Shown here: piece after piece, positions 5,561 to 17,650 of the stretch
How positions within the stretch are numbered: position 1 is the stretch's first letter
Layout: every line of letters begins with the position of its first letter
Assembly (NCBI GenBank): GCA_012517285.1
Contig: JAAYVG010000039.1
Coordinates: forward strand, 1-36,664
DNA length: 36,664 nucleotides
Direction of reading: 5' to 3'
Source of the DNA: Elusimicrobiota bacterium
Lineage (GTDB): Bacteria > Elusimicrobiota > Elusimicrobia > Elusimicrobiales > UBA9959
The notes under the pieces: generated by a model
Told to the model about the DNA's origin: nothing
Database searches by the model: none
The model's input: only the letters and a program-made list of their open reading frames with translations
Made by a program: the position numbers and the translations under genes

Positions 5561-6894
5561 AGAAAAAAATATTTTTTTGCTTTCTAATCTTATCTGCTTT
5601 TTCGCTTTGTTATGCTGACGATAAAAAATTTATAAAAGAAAAGGATACGATAAAAAAAGAGTTTTTAAAAGAAAAGGACAGAAACGATATATTGAAGGTT
5701 TTTAATTCTACACCAGAACCTGAGGGTGGGGTATTAAACAATATAGCAAAGAGTGTTATATTTGATATAAAAGGGAATCCATTTTTAGTACTACCTATTG
5801 TAAACACAAGCAAGGATTTAGGAATTGACTGGGGATTTATGCCTGTGCTTATGCTCAAGGGAAAGAATGATTCAATATCATCTGTTATTGCACCATCAAT
5901 AACAAAAAATGCTGATCTCGGTTATACCTATGCCTATAGACATTACTTTTTTCCGACAGAAAAATCACTCATAGTTGCAAGGGGATATCTTTCAGAACAT
6001 GTCCAGAGAGAGGTGTTTTTTCATTATTATAATCCGGAGATTCTTGGCTCGAACATAAGATTGAATGCTGAACTCAGAGACTGGCACAATCCTAAATCAT
6101 CATTTTATGGTTATGGTATAGATTCTAAAAAGAGCAATGGTGCGAACTACACCTATTATCTTAAAGGTGGGGAGTTTAGTTTGAGCCTTCCGCTGTTTAA
6201 AAATGTTTATTTTGATTACACTCCGTCGTACTACCAGAACAAGGCAGAAAATGGTATATTCACCAATAAAAAATTTTCAGATTCCTTTCCTGTTGAATAT
6301 TCAATGTATAACAGTTATAAATCTTTTTTTACAAACAGATTTTCAATTCTCTTTGATAACACCGATCATCCATTTATACCAAAGATAGGAACATACTTCA
6401 TTTTTTCAGGTGCATTCTCAAAAAAGGGACTTCTTTCTGATTATGACTACTCCATATATACTCTGGAATTAAAGGATTACTATAATTATAAACTCCTTGA
6501 TAAATCAATAACAGCTGTAAGATTCTTACTTCAATGGCAGACTGGTGATGATATTCCTTTTTACAATATGCCTCAGTTGGGGGAATCAACTGGTCTTAGA
6601 GAGGCTGGCGATGGAAGATTTGTTGATAGGGCAAAAATGGTTTTAAACATAGAGCAGAGGTTTACAATAGTTAAACAATCTGTAATGAAATTTTTGACGG
6701 AGTTGGAAGTTTCACCATTTATTGACATAGGAACTGTTGCCCCATCGCTTTCAAAAATTTCAACTGGTGATTTAAAGTATGGTCCTGGCCTTGCACTAAG
6801 AATAGTCTTAAGACCACAAATAGTTGGTACTGCTGAATTCGCTTTTGGTTCTGAGGGGATGAACACAATAGTTAAAATAAACTATCCGTTTTAA
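5557..6894 (+). CDS. Outer-membrane beta-barrel protein, Omp85/surface-antigen (D15) type
   Basis: This 445-aa protein begins with a cleavable signal peptide (hydrophobic stretch about 5-19, likely cut after CYA at 20). The rest alternates short aromatic-rich strands and polar loops and ends in Phe, as outer-membrane barrels do. The segment LGESTGLREAGDGRFVDRA resembles the L6 region of Omp85 proteins, where the key R is in (V/I)RG(Y/F) and is followed by a strand entry like GRF.D; here it is degenerate (LREAG instead of LRGY). No POTRA repeats are present: only ~50 charged residues separate signal and barrel. It is therefore a POTRA-less surface-antigen-type barrel of unknown cargo. It overlaps nadE by 4 bp; the functional link is unclear. 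Confidence 0.7.
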   Translation: MKKKIFFCFLILSAFSLCYADDKKFIKEKDTIKKEFLKEKDRNDILKVFNSTPEPEGGVLNNIAKSVIFDIKGNPFLVLPIVNTSKDLGIDWGFMPVLMLKGKNDSISSVIAPSITKNADLGYTYAYRHYFFPTEKSLIVARGYLSEHVQREVFFHYYNPEILGSNIRLNAELRDWHNPKSSFYGYGIDSKKSNGANYTYYLKGGEFSLSLPLFKNVYFDYTPSYYQNKAENGIFTNKKFSDSFPVEYSMYNSYKSFFTNRFSILFDNTDHPFIPKIGTYFIFSGAFSKKGLLSDYDYSIYTLELKDYYNYKLLDKSITAVRFLLQWQTGDDIPFYNMPQLGESTGLREAGDGRFVDRAKMVLNIEQRFTIVKQSVMKFLTELEVSPFIDIGTVAPSLSKISTGDLKYGPGLALRIVLRPQIVGTAEFAFGSEGMNTIVKINYPF

Positions 6895-6896
6895 TA

Positions 6897-7024
6897 GTGG
6901 ACAGTGGTCAGTGGGCAGTGATCAGCAAAACCCAAAAGACAAAACAGTGGTCAGTGGACAGCAAAAAAGAAGACAGAAGACAGAAGTCAGATGTCAGAAA
7001 ACAGAATACAGAGGACAGGAAAGA
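6897..7024. repeat. CAGNNNN heptamer repeat tract, copy 1
   Basis: Short units beginning CAG follow one another, mostly at 7-nt spacing: CAGTGGT, CAGTGGG, CAGTGAT, then after A-rich interruptions CAGTGGT, CAGTGGA, and later CAGAAGA, CAGAAGT, CAGATGT, CAGAAAA, CAGAATA, CAGAGGA. The tract starts right after the stop of the barrel gene. It is a degenerate low-complexity array rather than a clean tandem repeat. Confidence 0.75.
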
Positions 7025-7052: not shown

Positions 7053-7089
7053 CTACGATCCCGAACCGTATCACGGTTCGGGATCGTAG
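7053..7089. repeat. Palindrome A (17-bp perfect arms)
   Basis: Arms at 7053-7069 and 7073-7089 are perfectly complementary around a 3-nt loop ATC, with the core CGATCCCGAACCGT. It is markedly more GC-rich than the surroundings. Palindrome B at 14296-14340 shares the 15-base core ACGATCCCGAACCGT with loop GAT, so this is a dispersed REP-like element. No T-tract follows, arguing against a simple terminator. Confidence 0.8.
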
Positions 7090-7140: not shown

Positions 7141-7192
7141 GCAGCACTTAGAAGTTTTTTTAACTAAAAAATGTGTAAGTCATAAAGAGGGG

Positions 7193-7220
7193 TTGACAAA
7201 ATAAAAAAATCTGCTATATA
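7193..7220 (+). promoter_or_regulatory. Strong promoter for a small RNA
   Basis: A perfect -35 TTGACA (7193-7198) is followed after 16 bp by TATATA with an upstream TG (TGCTATATA, 7212-7220). Transcription would start about 7226-7228, just before the hairpin at 7229. No plus-strand gene follows for over 4 kb apart from the hairpin itself. Confidence 0.6.
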
Positions 7221-7225
7221 TAAGT

Positions 7226-7276
7226 TATAGGGCTGTCACCCAGATAGAACGGGTTTAAGACAGCCCTAATTTTTTT
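7226..7276 (+). ncRNA. Putative ~50-nt RNA ending in an intrinsic terminator
   Basis: Directly downstream of the promoter, AGGGCTGTC (7229-7237) pairs perfectly with GACAGCCCT (7259-7267). Inside it, ACCC (7238-7241) can pair with GGGT (7251-7254). A T-rich tract, AATTTTTTT, follows at 7268-7276. Promoter, hairpin and T-tract together make a complete minimal transcription unit with no room for an ORF. It could be a small regulatory RNA or an antisense/decoy transcript. Alternatively the hairpin is simply the terminator of the upstream barrel gene and the promoter match is fortuitous. I do not recognise an RNA family. Confidence 0.5.
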
Positions 7277-7278
7277 AC

Positions 7279-7330
7279 CAGACAACCAAATAACAGAGGT
7301 CAGAAGACAGAAAACAGAGGACAGACAAAT
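7279..7330. repeat. Octamer pair plus CAGNNNN heptamer tract, copy 2
   Basis: Two octamers CAGACAAC and CAAATAAC (7279-7294) run into five CAG-heptamers at exact 7-nt spacing (CAGAGGT, CAGAAGA, CAGAAAA, CAGAGGA, CAGACAA). This joins the two small-repeat families seen elsewhere in the window. Confidence 0.7.
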
Positions 7331-11923: not shown

Positions 11924-13522
11924 ATGGAACAAACCAAGCAAAAAACTAAAATGTTGAATACAAAACAAGCAGCAATATTTTTAGGCGTAAGCACAAAGAC
12001 AATTTATCGTATGGAAAAAAAAGGTTTATTGCATCCTATAAGAACACCAGGAGGACAACGTCGTTTTCCTAAACATTCTCTTGAAACATATCTTAATAAA
12101 AGTCGCGAATTTGCCGCACCTCAAAATCCAAGCAAGTTTTTAGTAAAAGAAGATGAAAATGTTTATTTATTTAATTCATCGGAGTTAAAACAAAAATCAC
12201 AGACGCATCAGCGAATTAATAGATTAGAACAAATCATTTCTTTGGGAGGATATTCTAATCATAATCAGCATTATAATTATAATAATAATATTAAGCACTG
12301 GATAGAAGAATGGGATTTTAAAAAATATCAAACAAAAACTTACACACACGGTTTTCATAATTATCCGGCGATGTTTATTCCACAAATTGCTCGTAAACTG
12401 ATTTCAGTTTTTTCAGAAGAAAAGGATACAGTATGTGATATTTTTTGTGGCTCTGGCACAACATTAGTTGAAAGCAGTTTGCTTAATCGTAATTCTATTG
12501 GAATTGAACTTAATCCTCTGGCAGTTTTAATCGCTCGTGTAAAAACAACACCAATTAATCCCAAAAACTTGACTGATAAACTTAAATTTATTATAGATGA
12601 ATATGAATCTATAAAGGATGTTCATCCATATTTTTTTACTAATATTGATTTCTGGTTTAAAAAGGATGTGATTAACGATCTTACACGATTAAAACAGGCA
12701 ATTTCTAAGATTCCTGAAGAAAATATCCGTAACTTCTTTTTCGTCTGTTTTAGCAATGTGGTTAGAATTGTTTCTTATACCAGACATGGAGAATTTAAAT
12801 TGTTTCGCTCTCCTAATAAAATGACAGATAAGTTTAAACCGGATGTTACAAGTGAATTTATTAAAATATGTGAAAATAATATTATAGGAATGAAAGAGTA
12901 TGTAAATAATATTTTTCCCCATACCCATTCTCGTATCATCATGGGGGATGCAACTAAAGATAATGGAATACCAAATAATTCAGTAGATCTCATTATTACT
13001 TCGCCTCCATACGGAGATAGTCGAACTACTGTGGCTTATGGACAATTTTCTAGATTATCTTCTCAATGGTTGGATTTACTTCCACCTAACATTAAAGATA
13101 TTGATAAAGAGTTAATTGGGGGAAAGAATAATGTTAACCTTAGCGATCCAATCTTAGACAAATCCATTACACTCAAGTTTAGCATTAATAGCATTGCAGA
13201 CAAAGATGAAGAACGAGCAAAAGAAGTATTGAGTTTTTATATAGATTTAAATAAGGCATTAATACAGGCACACAATATTCTTAAACCCAATAAATACTTT
13301 TGTTTGATCATCGGTAATAGAACAGTAAAAGAGTTAGTCTTAAAAACCGATACAATTATTTGTGAATTAGCAGAGAATATAGGATTTATACAACAAGGAA
13401 TTTTCTATCGTAATATTCCTAATAAACGAATGCCTTCAAGAAATAGTCCAACAAATGAAGCAGGTAAAACTGGTTCTACAATGCTGAAAGAAAGTATTAT
13501 TTTATTAAGAAAGGTGTACTAA
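11924..13522 (+). CDS. HTH-DNA methyltransferase fusion (N4/N6 amino-methyltransferase of a Type II R-M system)
   Basis: The 532-aa protein starts with a MerR/excisionase-type winged HTH (about 10-57: LNTKQAAIFLGVSTKTIYRM, then GGQRRFPKHSLETYL). A linker of about 70 aa leads to a Rossmann methyltransferase with SAM motif I DIFCGSGTT (172-180), IELNP, and catalytic motif IV TSPPY (359-363) followed by GDSRTTVAYGQFSRL. SPPY is typical of N4-cytosine enzymes, and the motif I-before-IV order differs from the beta-class remnant at 71-547. It converges with an MvaI/BcnI-type endonuclease; the stops overlap by 4 bp. A cytosine-N4 methylase protecting a CCNGG-like site is inferred from that partner (M.MvaI is N4-specific). 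The gene uses many CGT/CGC/CGA arginines, unlike the AGA/AGG neighbours, pointing to horizontal transfer. SD is weak (GAAGAG). Confidence 0.85.
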   Translation: MEQTKQKTKMLNTKQAAIFLGVSTKTIYRMEKKGLLHPIRTPGGQRRFPKHSLETYLNKSREFAAPQNPSKFLVKEDENVYLFNSSELKQKSQTHQRINRLEQIISLGGYSNHNQHYNYNNNIKHWIEEWDFKKYQTKTYTHGFHNYPAMFIPQIARKLISVFSEEKDTVCDIFCGSGTTLVESSLLNRNSIGIELNPLAVLIARVKTTPINPKNLTDKLKFIIDEYESIKDVHPYFFTNIDFWFKKDVINDLTRLKQAISKIPEENIRNFFFVCFSNVVRIVSYTRHGEFKLFRSPNKMTDKFKPDVTSEFIKICENNIIGMKEYVNNIFPHTHSRIIMGDATKDNGIPNNSVDLIITSPPYGDSRTTVAYGQFSRLSSQWLDLLPPNIKDIDKELIGGKNNVNLSDPILDKSITLKFSINSIADKDEERAKEVLSFYIDLNKALIQAHNILKPNKYFCLIIGNRTVKELVLKTDTIICELAENIGFIQQGIFYRNIPNKRMPSRNSPTNEAGKTGSTMLKESIILLRKVY

Positions 13523-14205
13523 TCTATTAAATCCACTATTTTTTTAAATAGATATGGCAATTTATTCTCATAAACTCTAAATCCAGTTCCATGATTTCGT
13601 GCCGTTGTTCCTTTGTCATGTAATCTTAAATCCACAAAAATATTCTCTGCCTTAAATTGATTAGATAGTAATTCTGGTGAAGTTCCTTGTAACAATTGAG
13701 CACGATAAAAATGAAACCACTCTCTCCCGTCTCTTTCTTCAGCAAAGGCAGATACAAGAATTAATGATGGTATTTTCTTTATAAAGGTTTCAGCCAAGTT
13801 TTTTAATGACCAAATTGCTATTATTTCTCCTGATATATGTCGTACCGATATATCTTTGTCATCTACATATAAGAATAAGCCTGCATTATTGGGTTTTAAG
13901 GACATTGTATAATAAAGACCTTTTCTTCCATTCCTATCTAAACTTCCATATTTTTTTACAGCTTCAAGCGGTGGCATTTGCCATACCTTACGATTAAAGG
14001 TGAAAAGGGTTATCATATTATTACTATCTGTACGATGTGCTTTAATCTCTGCATATCCAATGTCTGGTAAAGGCATGTTGTTTTCTTTTATACCAAGATA
14101 TGTTTCCAATGTATGTCCTATTCCAGTAGGTCCTTTTCTTGTAGATGGAACAAATCCTTTTTCCTTTAGTTCAGATAATTTTTTTTCGAATTCTTTTAAA
14201 TCCAT
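13519..14205 (-). CDS. MvaI/BcnI-family Type II restriction endonuclease
   Basis: The 228-aa protein is close in length to MvaI and BcnI (about 240). The N-terminal signature GPTGIGHTLETYLGIKENN (25-43) and PDIGYAEIK (47-55) give a PD-(D/E)XK site, with D48, E53 and K55 as likely catalytic residues and E34 nearby. Later TLFTF and the C-terminal HGTGFRVYENKLPYLF also fit the family. MvaI and BcnI cut within CC(W/S)GG as monomers; the exact site here cannot be read from sequence. It converges on the HTH-methyltransferase with a 4-bp overlap. The ATG has no SD; TATAAT lies 6 nt upstream inside a perfect 22-bp palindrome, so expression is probably leaderless and may be repressed there. Confidence 0.85.
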   Translation of the reverse strand: MDLKEFEKKLSELKEKGFVPSTRKGPTGIGHTLETYLGIKENNMPLPDIGYAEIKAHRTDSNNMITLFTFNRKVWQMPPLEAVKKYGSLDRNGRKGLYYTMSLKPNNAGLFLYVDDKDISVRHISGEIIAIWSLKNLAETFIKKIPSLILVSAFAEERDGREWFHFYRAQLLQGTSPELLSNQFKAENIFVDLRLHDKGTTARNHGTGFRVYENKLPYLFKKIVDLID

Positions 14206-16840: not shown

Positions 16841-17650
16841 ATGATGAAAGAAATAAGGGCTGAAGGGAAAACTATAAAAGATGCTATTGAAAATGGTCTT
16901 AAAGAGCTGAATCTTACAAGGGAACAGGTTGATGTGGAGGTTGTAAGAGAGGAAAAAAAGGGATTGTTTGGAATAGGCGCTCATAATGCCTGTGTTGTTC
17001 TAAGGGAAAAGATATGGGGTGATGAAAGCAAAAAAGAAAATAAGGCAGAGGAGAAACAGATAAAGCTTGAGATATCCAGTTCTGGTTTTAAACCAACGGG
17101 TAATATTCTTGAGGATACAAAAAAACTTCTCACTGATATCCTTGCATTCTCAAAGATTGATTTTAGGATAATAAGTTCAAGTTATAATGAGGCTGAAAAA
17201 ACTGTTTATATCAATATTGAGACGAGGGATGCAGGTTTGTTGCTTTACGATGGTGCAAGAGGTCTTCTTTCTTTGCAGCAGTTTATAAGTATTGTTTTAA
17301 ACAAAGATGATAATAATAAAAAAATAGTTTTTAGGCTTGATACTGAGGATTTTTGGGCTAAAACAGAGAACAGGATCAAAAGAGATATAGAGCATGCAAT
17401 AGAGGTTATAAAGAGAACTAAAAAATCTTATGGAATGAAGCCAATGCACTCATCATTTAGAAAGATAATCCATGATATGGTTAAAAATGATTATCCAGAA
17501 TACACAACATTTTCTACCGGTCATGGAAAGTTTAGAAAGGTTATAATAAAGCCAAATTTTAGAAGATATGGGAAGTCAAGGCAGAGTTTAGTTGATAAAA
17601 AAGAAGATATAAAAGAGGAGAAGGTAGAAAGCAAAGAAGAAAATGTATAA
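16841..17650 (+). CDS. jag: Jag/KhpB (EloR) RNA-binding protein
   Basis: The 269-aa protein has three recognisable parts: the Jag_N domain (1 to ~55; KTIKDAIENGLKELNL, then EEKKGLFGIGAHNA), a KH-like domain (about 85-165) with the degenerate loop DGARGLLSLQQFISIVLNK, and a C-terminal R3H domain (about 170-235) with KSYGMKPMHSSFRKIIHD. In other bacteria it binds RNA and links to cell elongation and envelope synthesis. The C-terminal 35 residues are Lys/Glu-rich and probably disordered. SD GGGAGG precedes ATGATG. It overlaps mnmE by 8 bp. Confidence 0.93.
   Translation: MMKEIRAEGKTIKDAIENGLKELNLTREQVDVEVVREEKKGLFGIGAHNACVVLREKIWGDESKKENKAEEKQIKLEISSSGFKPTGNILEDTKKLLTDILAFSKIDFRIISSSYNEAEKTVYINIETRDAGLLLYDGARGLLSLQQFISIVLNKDDNNKKIVFRLDTEDFWAKTENRIKRDIEHAIEVIKRTKKSYGMKPMHSSFRKIIHDMVKNDYPEYTTFSTGHGKFRKVIIKPNFRRYGKSRQSLVDKKEDIKEEKVESKEENV

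Follow-up and report, generated by a model that had tools for sequence, protein, structure and literature searches.

The DNA analysed here, which we call the window, is the 36,664-nt stretch of contig JAAYVG010000039.1 (assembly GCA_012517285.1) from an Elusimicrobiota bacterium. Upstream of the element of interest is an Omp85-type barrel gene ending at 6894, and on the other side are two opposite-strand genes, a YtxH-like gene (below the Pfam cut-off) and glyS. Between them, at 7193-7276, a promoter is followed by a hairpin. An annotation made earlier from the letters of the sequence, the original prediction, had described a minimal promoter-to-terminator unit here, and TTGACA, the 16-nt spacer, the extended -10, the hairpin, and T7 can indeed be read directly (Table 1). 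On the comparative evidence below, 7193-7276 is very probably a real, conserved, structured RNA gene.

The promoter and hairpin at 7193-7276

The hairpin has a minimum free energy (MFE) of -22.3 kcal/mol (z -5.3), and none of 200 shuffled sequences was equally stable. The 9 bp originally proposed are present, but an extra T-A pair brings the outer stem (P1) to 10 bp, and an inner stem of 4 bp (P2) had been overlooked. With 10+4 bp of GC-rich stem followed by T7, the element has the makeup of an intrinsic terminator. P1 of the window copy starts 7 nt past the -10 hexamer, and no open reading frame (ORF) of at least 80 aa overlaps the unit, in agreement with the first description. A strict scan for exact TTGACA, a -10 element, and a 9-bp GC-rich stem at start distance found this as the sole site in the window, in four registers, and shuffling the whole window by dinucleotides 100 times produced no such unit; the scan was devised after the site had been seen. 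The promoter type is not particular to the unit, and similar TTGACA...TCTGCTATA sites are found elsewhere in the same genome.

Table 1. Parts of the unit in window coordinates; aligned matches are those of alignment A6, described below.
Feature	Position	Strand	Basis
-35 element TTGACA	7193-7198	+	sequence; TTGACA in 68/69 aligned matches
Extended -10, TGC TATATA (TGCTATATA)	7212-7220 (hexamer 7215-7220)	+	16-nt spacer; TG at extended -10 position
Predicted RNA, ~46-50 nt	7227-7276	+	start A7227 placed from the -10, end from the T-tract
Outer stem P1, 5' arm TAGGGCTGTC	7228-7237	+	pairs with 7259-7268; fold and covariation
Apical stem P2, 5' arm ACCC	7238-7241	+	pairs with 7251-7254; fold
Apical loop AGATAGAAC, 9 nt	7242-7250	+	fold
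Apical stem P2, 3' arm GGGT	7251-7254	+	fold and alignment
3'-only bulge TTAA	7255-7258	+	fold; no unpaired base opposite
Outer stem P1, 3' arm GACAGCCCTA	7259-7268	+	fold and alignment
U-tract of intrinsic terminator, A + T7	7269-7276 (T7 = 7270-7276)	+	sequence

Distribution, covariation, and gene status in family f1

At the DNA level, 41 genomes (the window's own and 40 relatives) were searched. Matches across most of the unit were found in four other genomes (G001, G002, G013, and G021); the remaining listed matches were short and chiefly covered the promoter part. The original prediction had proposed a covariance search in related genomes, and once this was run, a model lacking the window copy recovered that copy: R1, built from the copies in those four genomes, ranked it first in its own genome at 78.3 bits (E=1.3e-12), with the runner-up at 31.1 bits. 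R1 and then a refined model, R2 (32 copies, window copy included), were run over 340 genomes of the phylum. With 48.9 bits as the lower limit, R2 gave 131 copies, spread over 54 of the 59 genomes of taxonomic family f1, a family of uncultured bacteria, and in the remaining 281 genomes no match of either model exceeded 41.6 bits; the 48.9-bit line was set after the gap down to 41.6 bits had been seen. Stricter filters were applied in these phylum-wide searches and few candidates were scored, so the copy counts are lower bounds. One copy was found in 17 f1 genomes, two in 7, three in 20, and four in 10, with some copies in tandem (starts 124-184 bp apart). The weak R2 matches outside f1 (below 42 bits) were mixed: some units precede tRNA clusters, others lie within giant genes of phage type, and others again are plain promoters. 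A hairpin followed 91 of 116 promoter-like sites, a count without statistical value given that the loci had been preselected by the model.

Rfam 15 (4227 families) gave no match in the window at gathering scores, nothing beyond chance level at 7150-7310 (best E 2.9), and no match at the copies in 12 relative loci scanned. A known Rfam 15 family was therefore rejected as far as these scans reach. The suggestion of a new RNA family is supported by the spread through f1, the absence of a match in these Rfam scans, and the covariation of the stems.

This covariation was evaluated in alignment A6, whose 69 matches come from the window and from 60 fetched loci of our choosing and represent about half of the copies known. 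We found that 97.0% of 915 cells pair and that 12 of the 14 pairs have double changes, namely all ten P1 pairs and two of the four P2 pairs. The covariation score was 0.628, compared to 0.181 for shuffled alignments (0 of 500 reached it) and at most 0.223 when slid. All measures lay above all 500 shuffles except the number of pair types, which one of the 500 reached, and shifting the partner by 1-3 columns left pairing at 57% or less. The letters of P1 vary across A6 while pairing holds, and whole stems are swapped between groups of copies (AAGGCCTGTC, GGAGCGGAAC, GGGTCCGCG, GAGCCCGCGG). The two central C-G pairs of P2 (columns 50/85 and 51/84), meanwhile, are kept in all 68 matches that have letters in those columns. 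The hairpins are 36-41 nt long, from the first base of P1 to its last, plus a U-tail, with 4-8 T in the 9-nt tail of all 69 matches. In the aligned columns, the 3' bulge of the other copies mostly has 3 nt, compared to 4 nt in the window. Loops are mostly 8-9 nt; TATN(A/G)A is found in 41 of the 69 and is absent from the window's loop, and the recurrent types are TTATCGAC (13 matches) and ATATTAAC, TTATAAAC, CTCTTAGT, and CTCTCAGT (6 each). Chance was rejected as the origin of the unit on four grounds: the stability of the fold, the recovery of the window copy by R1, the covariation, and the 0 of 100 shuffled windows.

Across A6 there are 67 G-U pairs and 821 Watson-Crick pairs, and 51 of the 69 rows have at least one G-U. 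This leans towards pairing in RNA rather than DNA, though 50 of the 67 sit at the two junction pairs (17 and 33 rows), where non-pairs are also commonest; within P1 proper, G-U occupies 17 of 609 cells. The alternative is that the conserved object is an inverted repeat next to a promoter and acts at the DNA level, whether as an operator, a recombination site, or a mobile repeat. The outer arms do form an inverted repeat, there are other repeats in the region, and, as the last count shows, G-U rarely occurs in P1. We nevertheless consider this the least probable of all the explanations weighed here, given the G-U pairs at the junctions, a P1 sequence that is not conserved as an operator's would be, the partial short matches elsewhere in the window's genome, and the lack of any match among 50,697 phage and 72,556 plasmid records. 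For the same phage and plasmid result, and for want of many near-identical copies in the window's genome, a mobile repeat resembling repetitive extragenic palindromes or miniature inverted-repeat transposable elements (REP/MITE-like) was rejected: this genome has one full-length match to the unit and 40 others to short parts only. Two viral-contig scans were empty as well, although they used exact patterns from other genera and say little about divergent copies.

The promoter is kept together with the hairpin. Of the 69 matches, 68 have a 16-nt spacer, 67 have TGCTA, and 52 have CTGCTATA; P1 starts 6 nt past the -10 in 57 matches and 7-9 nt past it in the other 12. This near-fixed spacing places the predicted 5' end at the first pair or no more than ~3 bases from it, so the RNA would be essentially hairpin and tail. 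The candidate ~50-nt RNA of the original prediction is thereby supported as a prediction, by promoter geometry and by the covarying stems. A 3' end that belongs only to read-through from the barrel gene, the case named against the candidate at the outset, is unlikely, as copies with their promoters lie downstream of many unrelated genes.

In crude ORF calls, the next gene is convergent in 52 of the 69 matches and on the same strand in 16, while a same-strand gene precedes 54 (41 of these within 100 nt). The window copy is intergenic, and its next gene is convergent. Given the convergent majority, the product is most likely a free-standing RNA of ~46-50 nt and not a leader, and from its sequence context the window copy is most likely a free-standing gene for this predicted RNA. 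A cis-regulatory leader or attenuator of the downstream gene would fit the 16 same-strand cases, an ORF that begins 41 nt downstream of the model match in G001, and some promoter-hairpin units upstream of tRNA clusters in other families of the class. It was rejected for the window copy, and with 52 convergent cases we regard it as very improbable in general. The gene-end positions could instead point to a local transcription insulator, a unit that blocks convergent read-through and yields the RNA as a by-product, for which the 54 preceding same-strand genes and the 52 convergent ones both speak. However, a terminator alone would suffice for that task; the kept apical C-G pairs, the 3' bulge, and the conserved neighbourhoods would be left unexplained, and 16 matches face a same-strand gene. 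We therefore give this explanation little credence.

Two neighbourhoods recur within 3.5 kb of the copies. One comprises MltA (22 of 69 sites), a SpoU methylase (16), and a phosphofructokinase (15), and the other a MetH cluster (27 of 69), a WG-repeat protein (25), and CoaD (18), the last named from sequence and not by family search. The window's own neighbours are unlike both. Degenerate short repeats, CAGTGGTCAGTGGACAG / ACAGAGGTCAGAAGACAGA, are found on both sides of the window's unit (6896-7020 and 7290-7330), and an 18-nt part of them recurs at many other places in the genome, exactly or with one mismatch. A perfect 17-bp inverted repeat, CTACGATCCCGAACCGT, occupies 7053-7089, past the barrel gene and ahead of the RNA unit (3 nt between the arms, no T-run). 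Farther along the window, 11924-14205 holds adjoining genes for a helix-turn-helix (HTH)-DNA methylase fusion and an MvaI/BcnI-type restriction endonuclease, likely a restriction-modification pair.

Several results weigh against reading these units as conserved, free-standing RNA genes. A6 was aligned to the model structure, which biases it towards that structure; the related copies in it lack independence, and its counts still include row L125, which reaches 33 bits, has no inner stem, and is probably a non-member. In a MAFFT alignment of four sequences without structure fitting (A3), pairing was 98.2% and only 2 pairs had double changes. The full stem-bulge-stem architecture is the MFE fold of only 32 of the 69 matches when each is folded by itself, compared to 66 of 1062 other terminator-like hairpins; the test is a modest one, and this control set may include similar hairpins of family f15. 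A mechanically called frame of at least 70 aa overlaps 16 of the 69 matches by more than 20 nt, and for nine of these matches the frame exceeds 200 aa, so not every copy is cleanly intergenic. Five f1 genomes have no copy of at least 48.9 bits: G005 (98% complete), G007, G008, G017, and G159. At the locus itself, a generic scan missed the 7193 promoter because TATATA breaks its T-at-position-6 rule, and for the hairpin it gave only a 5-pair terminator at 7251-7266. Promoter-like sites in 5 kb were near the shuffled mean (27 vs 20.6, standard deviation 4.2), as were terminator-like sites in the generic scan (3 vs 2.6). With such counts, the significance of the unit comes from the juxtaposition of its parts and, above all, from their conservation.

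Function and possible partner

Our leading guess for the function of the free-standing RNA, held tentatively and with somewhat less than even confidence, is that it is a protein-bound hairpin, either a decoy or part of a small ribonucleoprotein. The idea draws on the pattern of conservation and is put forward as the best among several possibilities that are weakly separated. P1, with its letters free and its pairing fixed, looks like a scaffold, while the apical part, with two fixed C-G pairs, the loop, and a recurring 3' bulge, looks like the part that is recognised. The standard chaperones of small RNAs (sRNAs) also do not appear to be at hand, which favours a handle for some other RNA-binding protein. 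Hfq was found in 0 of 59 f1 genomes and 0 of 334 genomes of the phylum, which may mean that it is truly absent or too divergent for the models; ProQ was found in 0 of 59 f1 genomes, and CsrA in only 2 of the 59, neither being the window's. As controls, the searches for Hfq, ProQ, and CsrA gave matches in 5, 1, and 3 of 14 well-known genomes, respectively. An Hfq- or ProQ-dependent sRNA was rejected, as no such chaperone was found in the genomes searched, and so was a CsrA-sequestering sRNA, with GGA in 0 of 69 loops in addition to the scarcity of CsrA.

In the proposed mechanism, RNA polymerase would start from a strong housekeeping-type promoter and make a ~46-50-nt RNA that folds at once and terminates itself as an intrinsic terminator. 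With its 5' end sealed in the stem, the RNA could be stable and abundant. The apical stem, loop, and bulge would form the handle for an RNA-binding protein, P1 serving as scaffold only, and the RNA would act as a decoy for the bound protein or as the RNA part of a small ribonucleoprotein. A KhpA/KhpB-type KH/R3H chaperone is a candidate partner, although the pairing is a guess. Proteins of the Jag/KhpB type bind RNA in other bacteria, and the window contains a Jag/KhpB-like gene at 16841-17650, in which Jag_N and R3H domains were matched. If the partner is a protein, the RNA would be a direct bait for the sRNA machinery in bacteria whose genomes gave no match to Hfq or ProQ. A point against this proposal is that the loop is not the same in all paralogues, and it is not obvious that a single protein would tolerate such variation.

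The main rival takes up this variation. As an antisense sRNA, the RNA would use its apical loop as a seed for the loops or start regions of target mRNAs, and paralogues with other loops would serve other targets. Both loop and stem letters differ among paralogues of one genome, the loops fall into recurrent types, and tandem copies occur, as they do in paired sRNAs of other bacteria. Yet the seed would be very short and closed by a stable stem, and the absence of Hfq and ProQ from the search results given above tells against it as well. We rate antisense action as possible but doubtful, and keep the protein-bound hairpin as the leading guess.

Related hairpins and comparison with known RNAs

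Genus g64 of family f15 has units with a like promoter, a longer hairpin, a 3-nt bulge on the 3' side only, and the loop ATARAA. Four such units score 31-37 bits with R2, and their stems show covariation, with double changes at 7 pairs across the four sequences. A model built from these four sequences and no f1 sequence, R3, gives the window unit 39.6 bits with its promoter (E 5.9e-7 for the genome). The window hairpin alone scores 10.7 bits and was unreported in a 2-kb search with default filters, and the R3 alignment sets GATAGAAC of the window on the model loop. These sequence comparisons are suggestive only of a possible kinship between the f1 hairpin and similar hairpins in other families of the class.

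R3 also matches hairpins without its promoter part, and most of those examined are the 3' ends of longer predicted RNAs. A promoter could be assigned for 19 of the 21 hairpins examined, giving predicted RNAs of 105-305 nt, 15 of which fold in two domains, a 5' rod and a 3' hairpin. On this basis, the small hairpin could be a general 3'-end module of small RNAs in a phylum in which no Hfq was found, read by a protein as Hfq reads the 3' ends of sRNAs elsewhere, with the solitary form setting the free pool of that protein. The proposed module would have a scaffold stem of 9-15 bp, a 3' bulge of 3-4 nt, an apical stem of 4 bp, an A/U-rich loop mostly of 6-9 nt, and a U-tail. It would stand alone as an RNA of ~46-50 nt in f1, or a somewhat longer one in f9 and in g64 of f15, and it would be the last domain of the 105-305-nt RNAs in f15, several per genome in some. 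We consider so general a role unlikely.

Longer predicted RNAs were noted in f15 and f13 at L219, L216, L220, L215, L217, L218, L221, L222, L223, L225, L227, L230, L214, L228, L232, L210, L209, and L193. They have their own TTGAC...TATACT-like promoter and mostly combine a 5' rod from ~+1 with a GTCG-ATAGAA-CGAC-type hairpin at the 3' end; some genomes have several copies. At L228 and L210, closing stems of different sequence stay complementary, as judged by eye. Rfam gave no match at the longer RNAs in the eight loci scanned. Other promoter-hairpin units, at L179 (G007 contig C44) and at L157 and L159 (family f21), lie inside long opposite-strand frames that carry LPD3 or PBECR3, domains typical of phage-type polyvalent proteins; the frame beside L173, also on G007 contig C44, had no Pfam match. 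Four weak promoter-hairpin units are found on one contig of G007. At L158, L161, and L177 (f15, genera g54 and g63), a promoter, a GTCACGG... hairpin, and a T-run stand upstream of tRNA clusters in an attenuator-like arrangement.

Among known RNAs, 6S RNA (RF00013) is a free-standing structured RNA, as the candidate here would be. It is unlike the window RNA in size (187 model positions compared to ~50 nt), and this identity was rejected, with no RF00013 match in the window or in any of the 59 f1 genomes, reflecting real absence or divergence beyond the model. Some f15 loops, though not those of the usual 8-9-nt size in f1, are compatible with an ANTAR-type hexaloop (A1, G4). Covarying single hairpins with a U-run make up the category of "terminator stem candidates" described in PMC11109978, in the main text of which "Elusimicrobi" does not occur. 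As that category is described there, the window unit resembles it in having a single strong covarying hairpin followed by U residues, and differs from it in its near-invariant promoter at start distance, its inner stem, and its 3'-only bulge.

With the candidate, the phylum gains a conserved RNA gene; no small-RNA study of the phylum was evident among the paper titles listed in the literature searches. Some Rfam families are short sRNAs with terminator hairpins, and sRNAs that end in an intrinsic terminator have their own promoter and usually a seed region 5' of the terminator. The window RNA, unlike these, would be little besides the hairpin. With a promoter and a terminator-type hairpin as its only parts, it would be near the smallest conceivable free-standing structured RNA.
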